NCBI RefSeq assembly: GCF_000828675.1 | Contig: NZ_AP014510.1 | Span: 1,879,413-1,943,412 of the forward strand | Length of the DNA: 64,000 nucleotides | Reading direction: 5' to 3' | Source: Thermotoga profunda AZM34c06 | GTDB lineage: Bacteria; Thermotogota; Thermotogae; Thermotogales; DSM-5069 | Shown here: piece by piece, positions 511-24,475 of the stretch | Layout of the letters: every line of letters begins with the position of its first letter | Numbering within the stretch: the stretch's first letter is position 1 | The notes under the pieces: model-generated | Database searches by the model: none | Told to the model about the DNA's origin: nothing | What the model saw: the letters and a program-made list of their open reading frames with translations, nothing else | Program-made: the position numbers and the translations under genes

Positions 511-2466
511 ATGAAGTGGCTGGTTTTTTTATGTACTACGTTGATCTGTCTTTGCTTTTCAACTTCATTAAAAGTGGGAGTCTATCATAACCCGCCACTG
601 ATCGAGTTCTCAGAAGGAAGGGCATCTGGTCTGTATGCTGAAATACTCGAGCAATTAGCATCGACAAACAACTGGGATATCGAGTACGTTTTTGATGAAT
701 TCAGCACACTACTTGATAAACTTCGAAATGGGCAGATCGATCTCATGACGGCGATCGCATATACACCACAACGTTCTGAAATGTTCGATTTCAACAATCA
801 AGCGGTTATACTCAACTGGGGAGTAATTTGTGTAAAGGGGACACTCAGCAGCTTACTGGATCTTCAAGATAAAATCATAGCGATTGTCAATAACGACGTC
901 TATGCAGAATACCTGAAAAAGCAAATCGACGATTTTAAAATGAAAGTGAGATATTTCTATGTTCAGGATTATGAAAAAGCCCTCGAAGCCGTCAAAAAGG
1001 GATTGGCAGATGCATGTATCGTCAGCCGAATCTTTGCCCAAAATAATGTACAGCGATATTCACTCAACATAAGTGGAATAGTCTTCTCACCAATTGAACT
1101 CAGATTTGCCTTGCCTAAGAATACACAGAAGAATCAGATAGTAATTCAAGCTATAGATGATTTTTTGTACAAGATCAAATCAAACCAGGAGAGTTACAAT
1201 CAATTACTCAGCCGCTATCTTGGTACTTACATGGAAAAGCGTGTGATCCCAAAGTGGGTTGAAACAGCCTTGGTTTTGGCGATAGTAGTGGCGGGATTGT
1301 TCGTTCTGTGGACAAATTCGTTGAAAAGGGTTGTGGCAACTCGTACAGATGAATTGAACAAGGCTTTGCGAGAACTCATCCACAAAAACGAAGAATTAAT
1401 CGCAGCAAACGAGGAAATCAGAGCACAGAGTGAGGAATTAGAAACCCTGAATGAGGAACTCGAAAAAACTCTTAAGGATTTAGAAAATGCTATTCAAAGA
1501 TTTACCCAATCATTGAATCTATTTGGTCAACTTGCAACTTTTTCAAAAGATGAAGAATTCTGCTGGGAATTTTTAAAAATGGTGAGATCTGTGGCTCCAA
1601 ATTGCTCGGCTGCCCTTTCATATATGAATCTATGCTATCTTCAAACGAAAGATGGAGTTCAAGTTGTTTCATCTATAGATAGTTATAATTTACCTGAAGG
1701 GCGATTCGAAGGCTTACCCCTTCAACTTCCATATACTTTTGATCAACATCAAAAAGTTTATGAAGCGATTAGTATTAGATCAAATGATCTATATCTGATT
1801 CTTTTGAACCATTCAGAGAAGAAAATTTCAAGTGAAATTGAGATGGCCAAAAGTCTTTTAAATATAGTAAGGGTCTTTTTGAGAATAAAATCTTATGAAG
1901 AGAATGAAAAACAGTTTTACAGAAGGATCAACGATGTTTTGATAACGATTTTGAACTATCATGAACCTTATACGGCTGTACATTCAACTCGGTCGAGTGA
2001 TTACGCTGTGAAAATTGCGCAGAATTTATTTTTGAATGACGAAGCAATTGCAAGAGTCTATTGGGCAAGTCTTATTCATGATATTGGAAAAATTGCAATA
2101 CCAAGAGAAATATTGTGCAAGAGTTCAAAGTTGTCACCTGAGGAATTCGAAGCAATCAAAATTCATCCAGTTGTAGCAGCCGATCTACTTGAAAAGGCGG
2201 GATTGAGAGATATCGCAAAGATAGTACGCCACCACCACGAAAGATTTGATGGAAATGGTTATCCAGATGGTCTTAAAGCAGAACAGATACCAATTGAATC
2301 GAGAATCATAGCGGTGGTTGATGCATACGACGCAATGATCAGTGATAGACCTTATAGAAAAGCAATGTCAAGTGAAAAAGCGATTGAAGAGTTGAAGGCA
2401 AATGCTGGCAGCCAATTTGATCCACTGATCGTGGAGATATTCATTGAGCTTTTGAAAAAGGAGTGA
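511..2466 (+). CDS. Sensor with solute-binding domain and HD-GYP c-di-GMP phosphodiesterase domain
   Basis: 651 residues. A signal peptide (about 1-18) leads into a family 3 solute-binding domain (about 20-245, amino-acid-binding type). A membrane helix (about 251-268), a long Glu-rich coiled coil (about 275-330), a linker of unknown fold and an HD-GYP domain (about 470-650) follow. The HD-GYP signature is intact: H-D-I-G-K near 523 and H-H-H-E-R-F-D-G-N-G-Y-P near 575-585. The family hydrolyses c-di-GMP to GMP or pGpG with a metal centre. The inferred role is to sense a periplasmic ligand and lower c-di-GMP. It is first in a run of same-strand genes ending at 6079, and its stop overlaps the ribosome site of the next gene. 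Confidence 0.9.
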   Translation: MKWLVFLCTTLICLCFSTSLKVGVYHNPPLIEFSEGRASGLYAEILEQLASTNNWDIEYVFDEFSTLLDKLRNGQIDLMTAIAYTPQRSEMFDFNNQAVILNWGVICVKGTLSSLLDLQDKIIAIVNNDVYAEYLKKQIDDFKMKVRYFYVQDYEKALEAVKKGLADACIVSRIFAQNNVQRYSLNISGIVFSPIELRFALPKNTQKNQIVIQAIDDFLYKIKSNQESYNQLLSRYLGTYMEKRVIPKWVETALVLAIVVAGLFVLWTNSLKRVVATRTDELNKALRELIHKNEELIAANEEIRAQSEELETLNEELEKTLKDLENAIQRFTQSLNLFGQLATFSKDEEFCWEFLKMVRSVAPNCSAALSYMNLCYLQTKDGVQVVSSIDSYNLPEGRFEGLPLQLPYTFDQHQKVYEAISIRSNDLYLILLNHSEKKISSEIEMAKSLLNIVRVFLRIKSYEENEKQFYRRINDVLITILNYHEPYTAVHSTRSSDYAVKIAQNLFLNDEAIARVYWASLIHDIGKIAIPREILCKSSKLSPEEFEAIKIHPVVAADLLEKAGLRDIAKIVRHHHERFDGNGYPDGLKAEQIPIESRIIAVVDAYDAMISDRPYRKAMSSEKAIEELKANAGSQFDPLIVEIFIELLKKE

Positions 2467-2471
2467 GCAGT

Positions 2472-3293
2472 TTGGTCTATCTTTACTTAGCAGCCACACT
2501 CTTATTTTGGTCTTCCATGGAAGTTCTCACCAAACCTATGATGAATCAAGTTGATCCTTTCTTTCTCACTTTCTTCAGATTTCTCTTTGGAGGTATTTTT
2601 CTGCTGATTTTCATTCGTAAAAAGATACCTTTCAAAGATGTGATTTTACTGGTTTTAATAGGCTCAATCAACGGCGTATTGTCGATGTCGCTTTTGCAAC
2701 TGGCTGTCAAATTCTCAAATGCATCGACTGCAGCGACACTTGTAGCAACAAATCCCTTATTTGTGACAGTATTATCATTATTACTCGGTAAAGAAAGATT
2801 CAGCACGAAGAGATTTCTGAGTGTGGGAGTTGGATTAGTGGGAATCTTGATTCTTTCTTATGGAAGAATTGAAGGTGATAGTATAGTTGGTTTGTTGTGT
2901 GGCATAGGCGCTGCAGTGACTTTTGCTCTCTACGCAGTGTTAATGAGAGATTTTACATTGAAATATGGTTCACTGAATGCCACGGCTATTTCTATTTTCT
3001 CGGCAGGACTTATATACGGTGTTCTTTTGATTTTCACAGGTAATTTGAAGATACCTCATATTGGGATTTCTCAATGGCTGATTTTGATCTATGCCGGTGT
3101 CTTTGTAACAGGTCTTGCATATGTTACCTATTTCAAAGCCATGGAAAGACTTGGTCCATCCTTAACGAGTTTGGTTTTCTATCTCAAACCAGCCGTTGCG
3201 AGTTTCTTGGCTTTCTGGCTTCTTTCAGAACCAATTGGTCTATTCAAGTTACTGGGTACTGGTATCATAGTGTTTGCATTATTGCTCAAATGA
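2472..3293 (+). CDS. EamA/DMT-family membrane transporter
   Basis: About 273 residues forming ten hydrophobic segments in two repeated EamA halves, the drug/metabolite transporter layout (e.g. G-K-E-R-F-S after the fourth helix of the first half, L-S-E-P-I near the end). Such proteins export metabolites or drugs; the substrate cannot be read from sequence. I prefer the TTG at 2472, eight bases after the AAAGGAG site at 2457-2463. The GTG at 2463 overlaps that ribosome site itself. It follows the HD-GYP gene directly and is 25 bases before the MFS gene, so co-transcription is likely. Confidence 0.85.
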   Translation: MVYLYLAATLLFWSSMEVLTKPMMNQVDPFFLTFFRFLFGGIFLLIFIRKKIPFKDVILLVLIGSINGVLSMSLLQLAVKFSNASTAATLVATNPLFVTVLSLLLGKERFSTKRFLSVGVGLVGILILSYGRIEGDSIVGLLCGIGAAVTFALYAVLMRDFTLKYGSLNATAISIFSAGLIYGVLLIFTGNLKIPHIGISQWLILIYAGVFVTGLAYVTYFKAMERLGPSLTSLVFYLKPAVASFLAFWLLSEPIGLFKLLGTGIIVFALLLK

Positions 3294-19527: not shown

Positions 19528-20592
19528 TTGACAGTAGATGAAGCGCGGTTTTTGAGTAAAAAGATCATGGAAGCCGGAGAAGTTCCATTATTGGTTGGAC
19601 ATTTTGGAGTTGGGAAAACAGATGTGGCAAGACAAATCGCCAAAGAAACCAACAGAAAACTCGTGATTCTGATTCTTTCTCAGATGGAGCCTGGAGATCT
19701 CATAGGCCTTCCATCAAAACAAAATGAACAGACGGTCTTTCTAAGACCAGACTGGTGGCCCGAAGATGGCAATGCGATAATTTTATTAGACGAGATAAAT
19801 CGAGCGCACAGATCGATAAGAAATGCGATCATGCAACTTGTAATAGATAAAAGAATCCACAATCACGTATTGCCAGAAGGTACATGGATCATGGCAACGA
19901 TGAACCCACCAGATGATGAATACGATCAAGCCGATTTGATAACAGATCCTGCATTCATCTCACGCTTTTTCATAATTGAGATATCACCATCAATCGAAGA
20001 GTGGAAACTATGGGCACAGCAAAACAATGTCGATGAAACTATAATTCAGTTCATTGAAAAATTCCCTGAATTTCTTTACACGCATTCTCCCATGTCCCTG
20101 AGAGTCGAATTAAGACCCAGCCCCAGAAGTTGGTACAAATTGAGCAATGTCTTGAAGATAATGGATGAAAACGAGAAAAAGAAATATGGATATTCCTTGG
20201 CATGTGGGATACTTGGGCCGGAAGCCGCAAAGGTCTTTGTTGAGTCTGGTTACAATGAATCGATTCCTATGCCACAACTTGTTTTACTACAAGGTATTGA
20301 GAAAACTCTTAAAGACGATACAGATCGTGCTAATTCATTAACACTTCGGCTTATAGACTATTTTTCCAAACTCGATGATCAGACGATCGAGTTACTCCAG
20401 GCGAATATTTCAAGAGTTGCAAAAAACATAAGCGACCTTGCCTTTATCCTCCCCAGAGACTCCTTTTATGCCTTGATCAGATACATCACTGACAGGGCAT
20501 CGAATGGAGAGAAAAACTCGCAATTTTTCGATAAACTGATCGAAAACCTTGCAGCCTTTGATCAAGTGAGATCGATACTCGATGAAATCTGA
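19528..20592 (+). CDS. MoxR-type AAA+ ATPase
   Basis: 354 residues. Walker A G-H-F-G-V-G-K-T (about 25-32), Walker B I-I-L-L-D-E-I-N-R-A and sensor 1 A-T-M-N-P-P identify a MoxR-branch AAA+ ATPase. MoxR proteins act as chaperones that activate partner complexes, usually alongside a VWA protein encoded next door, as here. The start is the TTG at 19528, eight bases after AAAGGAGG. Its end overlaps the next gene by 11 bases. The client is unknown. Confidence 0.88.
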   Translation: MTVDEARFLSKKIMEAGEVPLLVGHFGVGKTDVARQIAKETNRKLVILILSQMEPGDLIGLPSKQNEQTVFLRPDWWPEDGNAIILLDEINRAHRSIRNAIMQLVIDKRIHNHVLPEGTWIMATMNPPDDEYDQADLITDPAFISRFFIIEISPSIEEWKLWAQQNNVDETIIQFIEKFPEFLYTHSPMSLRVELRPSPRSWYKLSNVLKIMDENEKKKYGYSLACGILGPEAAKVFVESGYNESIPMPQLVLLQGIEKTLKDDTDRANSLTLRLIDYFSKLDDQTIELLQANISRVAKNISDLAFILPRDSFYALIRYITDRASNGEKNSQFFDKLIENLAAFDQVRSILDEI

Positions 20593-21769
20593 TATCGAAA
20601 AAATCATACTGAATCTTGGTAGAAGATCTCCTTTTTACCTATATCTTCTACTTAATATCTCACGCGTACCTTCAAAAGAAGTGAAAAATATTGAACTCTC
20701 TTTTACGTCAAATTCGAAGATAACGCTTTATTACAATCCAGATTGGGTTTCAAACAAACATCCAGAATTCGTAGAAGGTTTGATTCTTCATCATTTGATG
20801 CATTTGATAAACTTACACTTTCTCATAAAACCAAAAGACAATAAAGACAGAATGATATGGGATCTTGCGATGGACGCGGCGATTAATCAGTATATCCCTC
20901 AACTTTCAGCATTCGGGATTCCTTTGAATCTTTTGATCGAAGAAGGTCACGGTGTGGATAACGAAAGATTGTTTGTGCTCCCGCCAGATTGGATGCCGGA
21001 CAAGAGTGCAGAAGAATACCACAAATGGATTTTGCAAAAAATGAGAGAACTTGGTAGATACGATATAGCCATAATCGCACAGGCAAGAGAAAATTCCTGC
21101 GATTCACACACTAAGATGCATCAAATACAGGACATAGACATGGTTTTGGAACTAACCAAAAGCCAGTTGAAAAAGGCTTTCAATCTGTATGGCTCTGAAC
21201 TTGAATCTGGTATCAAGAGATTGGTTGAACTCTCTATATCAAGACCCCTTTTGAACTGGAGAGATAAAATAAGGCACTTTGCCGGAGTATCTGAATACGG
21301 TGAAAGATATACAACTGTTCTTAGACCAAACAGAAGATATGAACAACAACCAGGTTGGAGGACATCCCACATGGCAAGACTTGGTGTTATCGTTGACACG
21401 AGTGGGAGCATAATAGAAGAAGAATTGGATGACTTTTTCTCCGAAATAGAGGCACTTTCAAGATATATGGACACCAATTTCGTGCTTGTTCAAGTAGATC
21501 GTGCCGTTAATTTAGAAATAAGATATTCAAAAGGCACTTACAGAAATATGGAGATAATCGGTGGTGGTGAGACGGATTTGCAACCAGCTGTCGATTACCT
21601 TCAAAACAAACATCACCCAGAAGGAATAATAGTCTTCACCGACGGCTATACAGATCTTCCTATCGTTAAAAGACGTGTTTTATTTGTACTGTCAAAGCAT
21701 CACAATGAAGAGTTCAAAACACAGGCGAGAAAGATCTATGGTCGCTCGAGTGTGGTGGTACTACAATGA
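20582..21769 (+). CDS. Putative metallopeptidase-like/VWA-like protein (DUF2201 type)
   Basis: 395 residues. The N-terminal part resembles the metallopeptidase-like domain found with C-terminal VWA-like domains (DUF2201). The C-terminal part has a MIDAS-like D-T-S-G-S at about 272-276 and a later G-G-G-E-T-D-L. The expected zinc motif HExxH reads H-H-L-M-H (residues 70-74), so the catalytic Glu appears to be replaced by His. This could be a non-proteolytic scaffold activated by the upstream MoxR ATPase; that is inference. It overlaps both neighbours (11 and 4 bases), a strong sign of coupled translation. Confidence 0.8.
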   Translation: MKSDIEKIILNLGRRSPFYLYLLLNISRVPSKEVKNIELSFTSNSKITLYYNPDWVSNKHPEFVEGLILHHLMHLINLHFLIKPKDNKDRMIWDLAMDAAINQYIPQLSAFGIPLNLLIEEGHGVDNERLFVLPPDWMPDKSAEEYHKWILQKMRELGRYDIAIIAQARENSCDSHTKMHQIQDIDMVLELTKSQLKKAFNLYGSELESGIKRLVELSISRPLLNWRDKIRHFAGVSEYGERYTTVLRPNRRYEQQPGWRTSHMARLGVIVDTSGSIIEEELDDFFSEIEALSRYMDTNFVLVQVDRAVNLEIRYSKGTYRNMEIIGGGETDLQPAVDYLQNKHHPEGIIVFTDGYTDLPIVKRRVLFVLSKHHNEEFKTQARKIYGRSSVVVLQ

Positions 21770-22560
21770 TTGGATATGGACCGAGTTTGGTCGTTGAAAT
21801 ACTACAAAGATACGTGACTTCTTTGCCAACTGAGATTGCTGTTTCCGAGCTCGAAAAACACAAAGATAAACTCGATCAATATCACAGGCATGTCTTTCTT
21901 TCCACGGTATATACCCAGGGTGGTTTTTGTGTTTTCTCGGCTATTGACACCGAAAAAAGGCAGATCATAGGTGTTTCTATCACTGATCCATTTGAAAAAA
22001 ATTTGATGATATACAATTCAACTTTCGAATTTGAAGTTCTTCAAAAGATCTACCGTGAACTTTTCAACATAAAGGCAGAATTTTTCAAGAGTGGAATCAC
22101 AAAATTACCCCTTCAATACAAAATCCTATCAGTTTTTGGTGATGATGATTTTCTACAAAAAGAGATGTTAAAAGAGAAAATCTATGGCGTGGAAAACCTG
22201 TCTTTTTGCCAAAAAATCAATCAACAATACTTTGAAAAACTCTGTAGACTGAATGAGAAAAAAATAGATTTTGCGATGATCTATCCTTTGGATGAGTACA
22301 TTGTCTGTATTTTAACGATGCCCGAATATATGAACAAAGACCATGCTTCTTTACTTTCTGAAATTTCACGCATTTACAGAAAAAAATATGGAGCAGCATA
22401 TCAAGGTAATGTGGACAAAATAAAAAAACTCTCATCGGTCTTGAGTGCCTTTGTCGTATCTTACGAAGACTTTCTAAAAGGTTTTGATGTTGAAAAGAGT
22501 TGTCTTGAATTGTGTGAAAAGATCAAAAAGGCTTACAAGTATGTCATTGATCTCGCTTAA
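21766..22560 (+). CDS. Unknown protein, third gene of the MoxR/VWA-like operon
   Basis: 264 residues with no family I recognise. It has no signal peptide or membrane helix and is a mix of charged helices and short strands (V-S-E-L-E-K-H-K-D-K-L near the start, K-I-K-K-A-Y-K-Y-V at the end). The ATG overlaps the previous stop (ATGA), so it is almost certainly translated with the MoxR and VWA-like genes and may be their client or adaptor. Its 3' end overlaps the convergent clamp-like gene by 17 bases. Confidence 0.75.
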   Translation: MIGYGPSLVVEILQRYVTSLPTEIAVSELEKHKDKLDQYHRHVFLSTVYTQGGFCVFSAIDTEKRQIIGVSITDPFEKNLMIYNSTFEFEVLQKIYRELFNIKAEFFKSGITKLPLQYKILSVFGDDDFLQKEMLKEKIYGVENLSFCQKINQQYFEKLCRLNEKKIDFAMIYPLDEYIVCILTMPEYMNKDHASLLSEISRIYRKKYGAAYQGNVDKIKKLSSVLSAFVVSYEDFLKGFDVEKSCLELCEKIKKAYKYVIDLA

Positions 22561-23581
22561 CTTTAATAATGACATACCTACCTTTTTGGTCTTCTATTCT
22601 CACAAATTCATCGAAAACCGTTAAAAAAATCCTTGTACCCATTCTCGACAGAGCCGATCTTAATCTATGTGGAGAGACCTCTATTTCAAATGGCTTTTGA
22701 AGACCTATATCCAAGTCTGCTTTGTACTGTACCGTGCCGTATGATCCATAAAAATGTATCTTTTTTTCAGTCCCGATGATCGTTAAAGGTGTATCTTTTG
22801 GCAAAAGCCAGGCAGCTTTAGAAACGAATTTTGCGAAAGCCGTGTAGAGCTGATATGGCTCTCCACGAACAAAAATCTGCTCGATCCTGCCTTGCTGAGA
22901 GTCTCTTTCACCACAAACTTGCATGGCAAAATCGTCACTGATCATACTGAACCATGCTTCACCAATTGCCAGAGTCAGCGAACAATCTTTCTCATAAGTT
23001 TTCAAGGCTTTCACGATGTGTCTACTACTCATATATGGGATCGAGAAAGAAAAAAATTCGTTGATATGATCATCGACCTTGCAAAGACTGACAATCGTTT
23101 TTGATGGAGAAATCATTATCAAAGAACTTTCAAAGGAAGAAAGATATGTCATGTCTCCTTCTTCAAGCGCGGCTGTAGCAAAATCCAGAAAATTCATGAA
23201 CTTTGTGAGTCTCGTCTTTCCTATTTCTTTGAATGACTTCATGTGTTCTCTTTCCTTGGGTTGAGATGTTCTTATTCTCAGAGTTTCTTGATACCCTTGA
23301 AGGATTATCTGATCCTGCAGAATTGTGATTTGGATTTCCTGTGATTTTTCTCCTGTCAAAAAACCTTTTAAAAGCTTCAGTCCAATAGGTATCTCACCAT
23401 AGAACTGATCACATTCAGCGATCTTCATCCAACAGGTTAAACAACCATCTGTGGCTCTCATCACCAAGCCATCTTTATAAGACAAAAAAACATTCCCAAA
23501 ACTGTATTCAGAAGACCCAATTATTTTGTCACAAAACCTGAGCCAGTGAATTAATGAACTCGTCTTGATAACCGTCTTCAA
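22544..23581 (-). CDS. Divergent DNA polymerase III beta (sliding clamp)-like protein
   Basis: 345 residues. I recall canonical Thermotoga DnaN as about 366. The segments can be laid alongside DnaN from memory: an A-T-D-G-C-L-T strand like A-T-D-L-E; I-I-L-Q-G...L-R-I-R-T like L-V-I-S-S-G...F-R-I-T-T in domain 1; S-I-P-Y-M-S-S-R-H-I-V-K-A-L like the domain 2 helix; and a C-terminal R-Y-V-I-I-K-V-K-R matching Y-I-V-M-P-I-R-L. Identity is low, so this is a remote paralog rather than the replicative clamp. It starts with a TTG directly after the ddl stop and is probably co-transcribed with ddl. The role is unknown; clamp fold confidence is moderate. Confidence 0.6.
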   Translation of the reverse strand: MKTVIKTSSLIHWLRFCDKIIGSSEYSFGNVFLSYKDGLVMRATDGCLTCWMKIAECDQFYGEIPIGLKLLKGFLTGEKSQEIQITILQDQIILQGYQETLRIRTSQPKEREHMKSFKEIGKTRLTKFMNFLDFATAALEEGDMTYLSSFESSLIMISPSKTIVSLCKVDDHINEFFSFSIPYMSSRHIVKALKTYEKDCSLTLAIGEAWFSMISDDFAMQVCGERDSQQGRIEQIFVRGEPYQLYTAFAKFVSKAAWLLPKDTPLTIIGTEKKIHFYGSYGTVQYKADLDIGLQKPFEIEVSPHRLRSALSRMGTRIFLTVFDEFVRIEDQKGRYVIIKVKRDQ

Positions 23582-24475
23582 TCATTCCACCACCGTGCGA
23601 ATTATAGCATCGATTAACTGTTCAAAACTCATTCCCGCAGCTTTTGCAGAGGCTGGTAGATCACTCAAGTCTGTGAGACCAGGTATGGTATTCAACTCAA
23701 GTACATAGAAAATACCATCTTTGAGTATGCCATCAACCCTTGCAAATCCATCGCATTCACAGACTTCGAAAGCCTTCAGTGCAGATTGGGTGACTTCTGT
23801 GTGTTCTTGTTCTGACAGCGGTGCCGGTAGGATGAATTCAGTCATGTTCGGGGTGTATTTTGCTATGTAATCGTAGAATCTCCTTTTAGGTTTGAGTTCA
23901 AGAATAGGTAAAACCTGTGGTTTTCCATTCAATTTCAATATGGAGATAGTCAGTTCTCTTCCTGGTATATATCTTTGTACGATCATCTCATCGTAGTTTG
24001 AGAATTCTTGTAAGAGCGCTTGATAGAGTTGTTCTGGATTGTCACAGATATGAACACCTATGCTCGAACCTTCCTTTCTTGGTTTGATGACACAGGGGAA
24101 TCCAAACGGCGATTCCCTAATAGGCTGTTTAACCAAGATGTATTCGGGGTATTTAACATTTCCGTTGAGTGTACGGTATGTCATGACCTTGTCAAAACAT
24201 ATCGCGCTTGAAAGCACTTTCGAACCCGTGTATTTTATACCAAGCCAATCGAGAATGGCTTGAACCACACCGTCTTCACCAAATTTACCATGGAGCGCGT
24301 TAAAAACAAGGTCGAATTCCTTCAACTTAGGTGCGATAGAAAGAAAATCACCGTTCACATCGATGGGATAAGCTTCATGCCCGAGTTTTTTCAGCGCTTC
24401 CAAGACATTCTGACCACTTTTCAGAGAAATTGGTCTTTCGCGAGATATTCCACCAAAGAGTACGGCAATTTTCAT
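23582..24475 (-). CDS. ddl: D-alanine--D-alanine ligase
   Basis: 297 residues, an ATP-grasp enzyme joining two D-Ala for peptidoglycan precursors. Visible signatures: L-F-G-G-I-S-R-E-R at the N-terminus, H-G-K-F-G-E-D-G, the ATP-grasp V-I-K-P-R-K-E-G-S-S, and the metal-binding L-E-L-N-T-I-P-G-L-T. The start is an ATG with AAAGGAG upstream. The clamp-like gene follows immediately. Confidence 0.96.
   Translation of the reverse strand: MKIAVLFGGISRERPISLKSGQNVLEALKKLGHEAYPIDVNGDFLSIAPKLKEFDLVFNALHGKFGEDGVVQAILDWLGIKYTGSKVLSSAICFDKVMTYRTLNGNVKYPEYILVKQPIRESPFGFPCVIKPRKEGSSIGVHICDNPEQLYQALLQEFSNYDEMIVQRYIPGRELTISILKLNGKPQVLPILELKPKRRFYDYIAKYTPNMTEFILPAPLSEQEHTEVTQSALKAFEVCECDGFARVDGILKDGIFYVLELNTIPGLTDLSDLPASAKAAGMSFEQLIDAIIRTVVE

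Follow-up and report, generated by a model that had tools for sequence, protein, structure and literature searches.

The locus analysed here raises the question of whether a bacterial genome can encode a second, remote relative of the DNA sliding clamp and, if so, what such a protein would do. In textbooks, bacteria have a single, universal sliding clamp whose only partner pocket is equally universal. The window, i.e. the whole stretch of 64,000 nucleotides that was analysed, is part of a complete 2.19 Mb Thermotogota genome (G000). The initial annotation had placed a distant paralog of DnaN beside ddl, at positions 22544-23581. An open frame spans exactly these positions, but it had to be reassigned to the minus strand, since on the plus strand the reading is interrupted by many stops. 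The two genes concerned are:

22544..23581, minus strand: clamp-paralog CDS, 345 AA plus stop, TTG start; homologues in 98/103 Thermotogota genomes; dN/dS 0.04-0.13
23582..24475, minus strand: ddl (D-Ala-D-Ala ligase), directly upstream of the paralog

The reading frame is real, as its phylum-wide homologues and its dN/dS values demonstrate. Its start immediately follows the stop of ddl (TGA-TTG), and 17 nt at its 3' end are shared with a convergent DUF4895 gene. With no spacer between them, ddl and the paralog probably share a transcript and are translationally coupled, which applies to the family of the window only: the position beside ddl holds within this family, while the neighbours differ elsewhere. 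Three genes converge on the paralog from the plus strand (19528-22560), namely an AAA ATPase with a MoxR-like look, a VWA-like protein (DUF2201) and the DUF4895 gene. This cluster looks like a pair of the MoxR-VWA type with a lineage-specific third gene.

Relationship to the DnaN clamp

Searches of Pfam, NCBIfam and the PDB with the window protein alone gave only chance matches, and the curated DnaN models (Pfam gathering score, TIGR00663) do not recognise it. As sole query, it retrieved just a single close relative from the contigs, and the nearest named relative was a Pseudothermotoga MAG. A profile of 41 family members behaved differently: its confident PDB matches were bacterial beta clamps exclusively, including all 12 best, with T. 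maritima DnaN (1vpk) at the top (E 2.4e-7, nearly whole length). Among the individual members, the first of the DnaN Pfam domains (PF00712, DNA_pol3_beta; the others being PF02767 and PF02768) was matched by 8/41 at E-values up to 1, the best being 1.1e-5. The central and C-terminal DnaN domains were also matched by individual members, TIGR00663 by a single one of the 41 (9.8e-6), and PHROG 947 'processivity factor' weakly by 13/41.

The HMM-HMM comparison that had been suggested as a check gave a clear result. With hhalign, the paralog profile matched that of 22 Thermotogota DnaNs with a probability of 98.8 and an E-value of 7.4e-17 over 340 columns, and each domain aligned best to its own DnaN counterpart, so that the similarity spans all three clamp domains. 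Structure prediction agrees with this. The AlphaFold2 monomer model (pLDDT 93.5, pTM 0.91) contains the repeated clamp domains, three in number with two inner helices each:

23231..23581, minus strand: predicted clamp domain 1 (residues 1-117), inner helices at residues 7-21 and 68-75; hhalign to DnaN domain 1, E 2.7e-10
22862..23230, minus strand: predicted clamp domain 2 (residues 118-240), inner helices at residues 125-135 and 183-196; hhalign to DnaN domain 2, E 1.6e-5
22547..22861, minus strand: predicted clamp domain 3 (residues 241-345), inner helices at residues 247-259 and 304-312; hhalign to DnaN domain 3, E 1e-9

In a Foldseek search against the PDB, the best 50 matches were all beta clamps (TM about 0.79-0.84, E about 1e-20, 12-14% identity). 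Foldseek also matched phage clamps. Against solved clamps, the model reaches a TM of about 0.83 at an rmsd of 3.5-4. Since the canonical DnaN of the same genome, modelled likewise as a control, reaches 0.95 to 1vpk, the paralog is predicted to be a clamp fold with altered geometry.

Sequence profiles, profile-profile comparison, the predicted fold and the presence of a canonical DnaN elsewhere in the genome (C1:412340-413431) together strongly support remote paralogy to DnaN. The very low similarity to Thermotoga DnaN across three domains that had been noted initially is thereby borne out with profile methods and structure prediction. The paralog shares with bacterial DnaN (T. maritima TM0262, PDB 1vpk) the three-domain fold, the domain order, a similar length, six inner helices of net positive charge and profile similarity over the full length. 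It differs in its 12-14% identity, its own clade, the loss of the D-G-x-R-L pocket and the C-terminal MPxR, its conserved C47/C223 and R187-H188-K191, and its position below Pfam and NCBIfam recognition. Orthology to dnaN does not apply either, because the canonical gene lies elsewhere and the paralogs form a separate clade with 100/100 support. The protein is thus a member of the clamp superfamily, yet fails membership in DnaN by pocket, curated models and orthology.

Distribution and evolutionary history

Homologues were found in 97/103 Thermotogota genomes by single-sequence search and in 98 with the 41-member profile, mostly as a single copy; the latter count takes in a contig-edge fragment (G032) and a split gene (G041). 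Canonical DnaN is present in 99/103. Outside the phylum, none of 287 sampled genomes contained the paralog, and the profile gave weaker matches only (best 1.4e-10). Twelve of these were fetched and are DnaN, as they matched the Thermotogota DnaN profile with E-values of 1e-49 to 1e-94.

In the tree, every GTDB family sampled more than once was recovered as one group within the single paralog clade. Judged from these sequences, the paralog is old and apparently vertically inherited, and its descent from a DnaN-type clamp predates the radiation of the known Thermotogota; the tree left its branching place relative to non-Thermotogota DnaN unresolved. Nothing supported an origin from phages or plasmids, as tblastn against records of both gave no match. 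Like the phage beta clamps (PHROG 947), the paralog is a diverged three-domain clamp, but unlike them it is chromosomal, vertically inherited and linked to polC. It evolves faster than DnaN, with 26% versus 54% identity between the genome of the window and T. maritima. Nevertheless, it is under purifying selection, the larger dS values behind the dN/dS range being near saturation.

Five Thermotogota genomes lack the paralog (G064, G003, G004, G086 and G087). G003/G004 and G086/G087 are in each case both members of one genus and may represent true losses; in G004, the gene following polC is unrelated to the paralog. G064 was rejected as a true absence, the ddl orthologue being likewise missing from its assembly. 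Irregular copies were also observed. G059 carries the paralog followed by a partial tandem copy of domains 2-3 (L009:1495-2514 and 2459-3043, plus strand). In G041 (L185), a frameshift in either the gene or the assembly leaves two frames of about 189 and 151 AA in place of one. A second DnaN in G083 (contig C23, L111:303-1394, minus strand) groups with DnaNs of other phyla and stems from horizontal transfer or a contaminating contig.

DNA-facing surface and partner pocket

The conservation pattern separates a retained surface from a lost one. The positions concerned are:

23009..23023, minus strand: R187-H188-I-V-K191, second inner helix of domain 2, presumed DNA-facing
23090..23107, minus strand: P159-V164, where DnaN has its peptide-pocket motif (S/T)DG(F/H)RL according to the profile alignment
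23441..23443, minus strand: C47, 'ATDGC' loop of domain 1, conserved in 89/94
22913..22915, minus strand: C223, last strand of domain 2, conserved in 89/94

The six inner helices carry a net positive charge in all 94 members, with a mean of +7.8 versus -3.0 for the rest of the protein; the DnaN control gave +3.8 with slightly wider helix bounds. These helices are also more conserved than the rest, a difference reached by 12 of 344 circular shifts. R187 and K191 occur in 93/94 members, i.e. in every member covering them, as one row is gapped there. At H188 (88/94), R313, K255 and K72, the residue type is strongly conserved.

The pocket for clamp-binding motifs (T/S-D-G-x-R-L with a C-terminal MPxR) is absent. 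DGxR was found in 0/94 paralogs versus DxxR in 22/22 Thermotogota DnaNs, and the C-terminal MPxR is degenerate. Ranked by information, C47 and C223 exceed all other positions in conservation. Both are missing together in family f11 (S/H, T/S, V/M), but this coupling is imperfect, with two f7 members showing S/C and one f2 member C/R. By pseudo-symmetry in the profile alignments, C47 would occupy the position that the pocket histidine has in domain 2, and C223 that of the MP on the final strand of domain 3. The two cysteines may thus mark the counterpart of the canonical pocket between domains 1 and 2, an inference that does not involve any distance from coordinates.

Link to PolC and possible function

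In 30 of 98 genomes, the paralog lies directly 3' of polC on the same strand with a gap of at most 17 nt, adjacency being defined as a start no more than 20 nt away from the polC end and PolC being identified by Pfam. These cases comprise 16/17 genomes of family f9, where ruvC is often found in front of polC, and 14/21 of family f10. The remaining 68 paralogs do not adjoin polC and are located in unrelated operons (ddl, alaS, peptidase). In Thermotoga, the paralog follows alaS and precedes hslO. G090 is very probably T. maritima, as its DnaN reads as 1vpk; the hslO beside its paralog corresponds to the solved structure 1vq0, and its paralog gene is presumably TM1395, a locus tag given as a lead only.

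PolC is present in 102/103 genomes and ends in QISLF-, QFTLF- or QMSLF-like motifs, i.e. the canonical C-terminal clamp motif (QxxLF). Canonical DnaN is therefore still expected to serve PolC. Even the normal clamp-loader delta subunit is not recognised by PF06144 in these genomes. In several f10 genomes there is a further polymerase of the PolC type, about 970-1025 AA long and with PHP, polymerase and finger domains (L195:985-3951, minus strand, in G049; L196:665-3730, plus strand, in G038; similar ones in G036, G037, G047-G052, G054 and G055). It keeps the catalytic motif PDID(V/I)NFS and has no 3'-5' exonuclease domain, which makes a non-proofreading PolC paralog possible on the basis of its sequence.

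A role as clamp for a specialised polymerase had been considered in the initial annotation. Taken as a Y-family translesion polymerase, such a client is disfavoured: only 34/103 Thermotogota genomes contain one above the curated cut-off, and that of the window has none, yet has the paralog. The polC linkage points to the main replisome instead.

The explanation we favour, with reasonable but limited confidence, is an accessory clamp that encircles DNA and serves the PolC replisome through non-standard contacts, with ring closure, sliding, replisome membership and function all inferred. A second, fast-evolving clamp paralog is established by homology, predicted fold, phylum-wide spread and its own clade. 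Judging from charge and conservation, it most likely still surrounds duplex DNA as a ring or C-shape via its basic inner helices, and from the gene linkage it is most likely an accessory of the PolC replisome. Its contribution would be DNA grip or the recruitment of a lineage-specific partner; the surface used for recruitment would not be the canonical pocket and could, judging from the pseudo-symmetry, be the pseudo-equivalent site that C47/C223 mark between domains 1 and 2. Canonical DnaN, with its intact pocket, would be the clamp bound by the QxxLF motif of PolC. Against this explanation stand the lack of any direct sign of dimer or ring formation, the model being that of a monomer, the majority of genomes in which the paralog does not adjoin polC, and the unresolved origin relative to non-Thermotogota DnaN. 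The paralog is also not indispensable to PolC, since G003, G004, G086 and G087 have PolC without it. A more specific version, a two-clamp Thermotogota replisome in which DnaN is joined by a second ring, or a hybrid, that holds DNA by PolC and offers a new domain 1/2 site, remains tentative and is rather to be doubted.

Several clamp genes per cell are known from archaea, where additional PCNAs (PCNA1/PCNA2 of Thermococcus kodakarensis, the crenarchaeal heterotrimer) have divided partner specificity (PMC3504372, PMC4894655). Archaeal PCNAs are trimers with recognisable PIP pockets, while the Thermotogota paralog is a bacterial three-domain protein whose pocket is lost. By analogy with heterotrimeric crenarchaeal PCNA or 9-1-1, one paralog and one DnaN subunit could form an asymmetric, heteromeric ring in which only one of the two peptide pockets is intact. 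Nearly all genomes encode both clamps, the loss of one pocket would be tolerable if the partner keeps its own, and the archaeal heteromeric clamps with divided partner binding provide a precedent (PMC3504372; PMC4894655). No interface data are available, though, and the paralog evolves much faster than DnaN, whereas obligate interface partners usually constrain each other, so that this arrangement is unlikely, if conceivable.

Similarly improbable is a reuse of the fold without a closed ring, either as a monomeric or open DNA binder or as a regulator competing for the clamp loader or DNA. The lost pocket, the varying operon contexts and the larger deviation of the model from solved clamps compared with the DnaN control would fit such a protein, but a pure regulator would not need all three domains and the basic inner-helix residues, which are kept. 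A redundant or decaying DnaN copy, as the fast evolution, the split gene in G041 and the partial tandem copy in G059 might suggest, is in essence refuted by the purifying selection across the phylum, the retention in 98/103 genomes and the near-invariant residues.

No description of a second clamp in Thermotogota was found in the literature searched, whose coverage is incomplete, most subscription papers being outside it. The Thermotogota, including the model hyperthermophile T. maritima, possess a conserved second clamp paralog that has lost the pocket and kept the DNA channel. Together with the polC adjacency in two families, it suggests that a bacterial lineage has divided clamp duties as archaea and eukaryotes have, for which heteromeric PCNA and 9-1-1 are the parallels. 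A conserved protein that has gone unrecognised thus becomes a directly testable component of the replisome.
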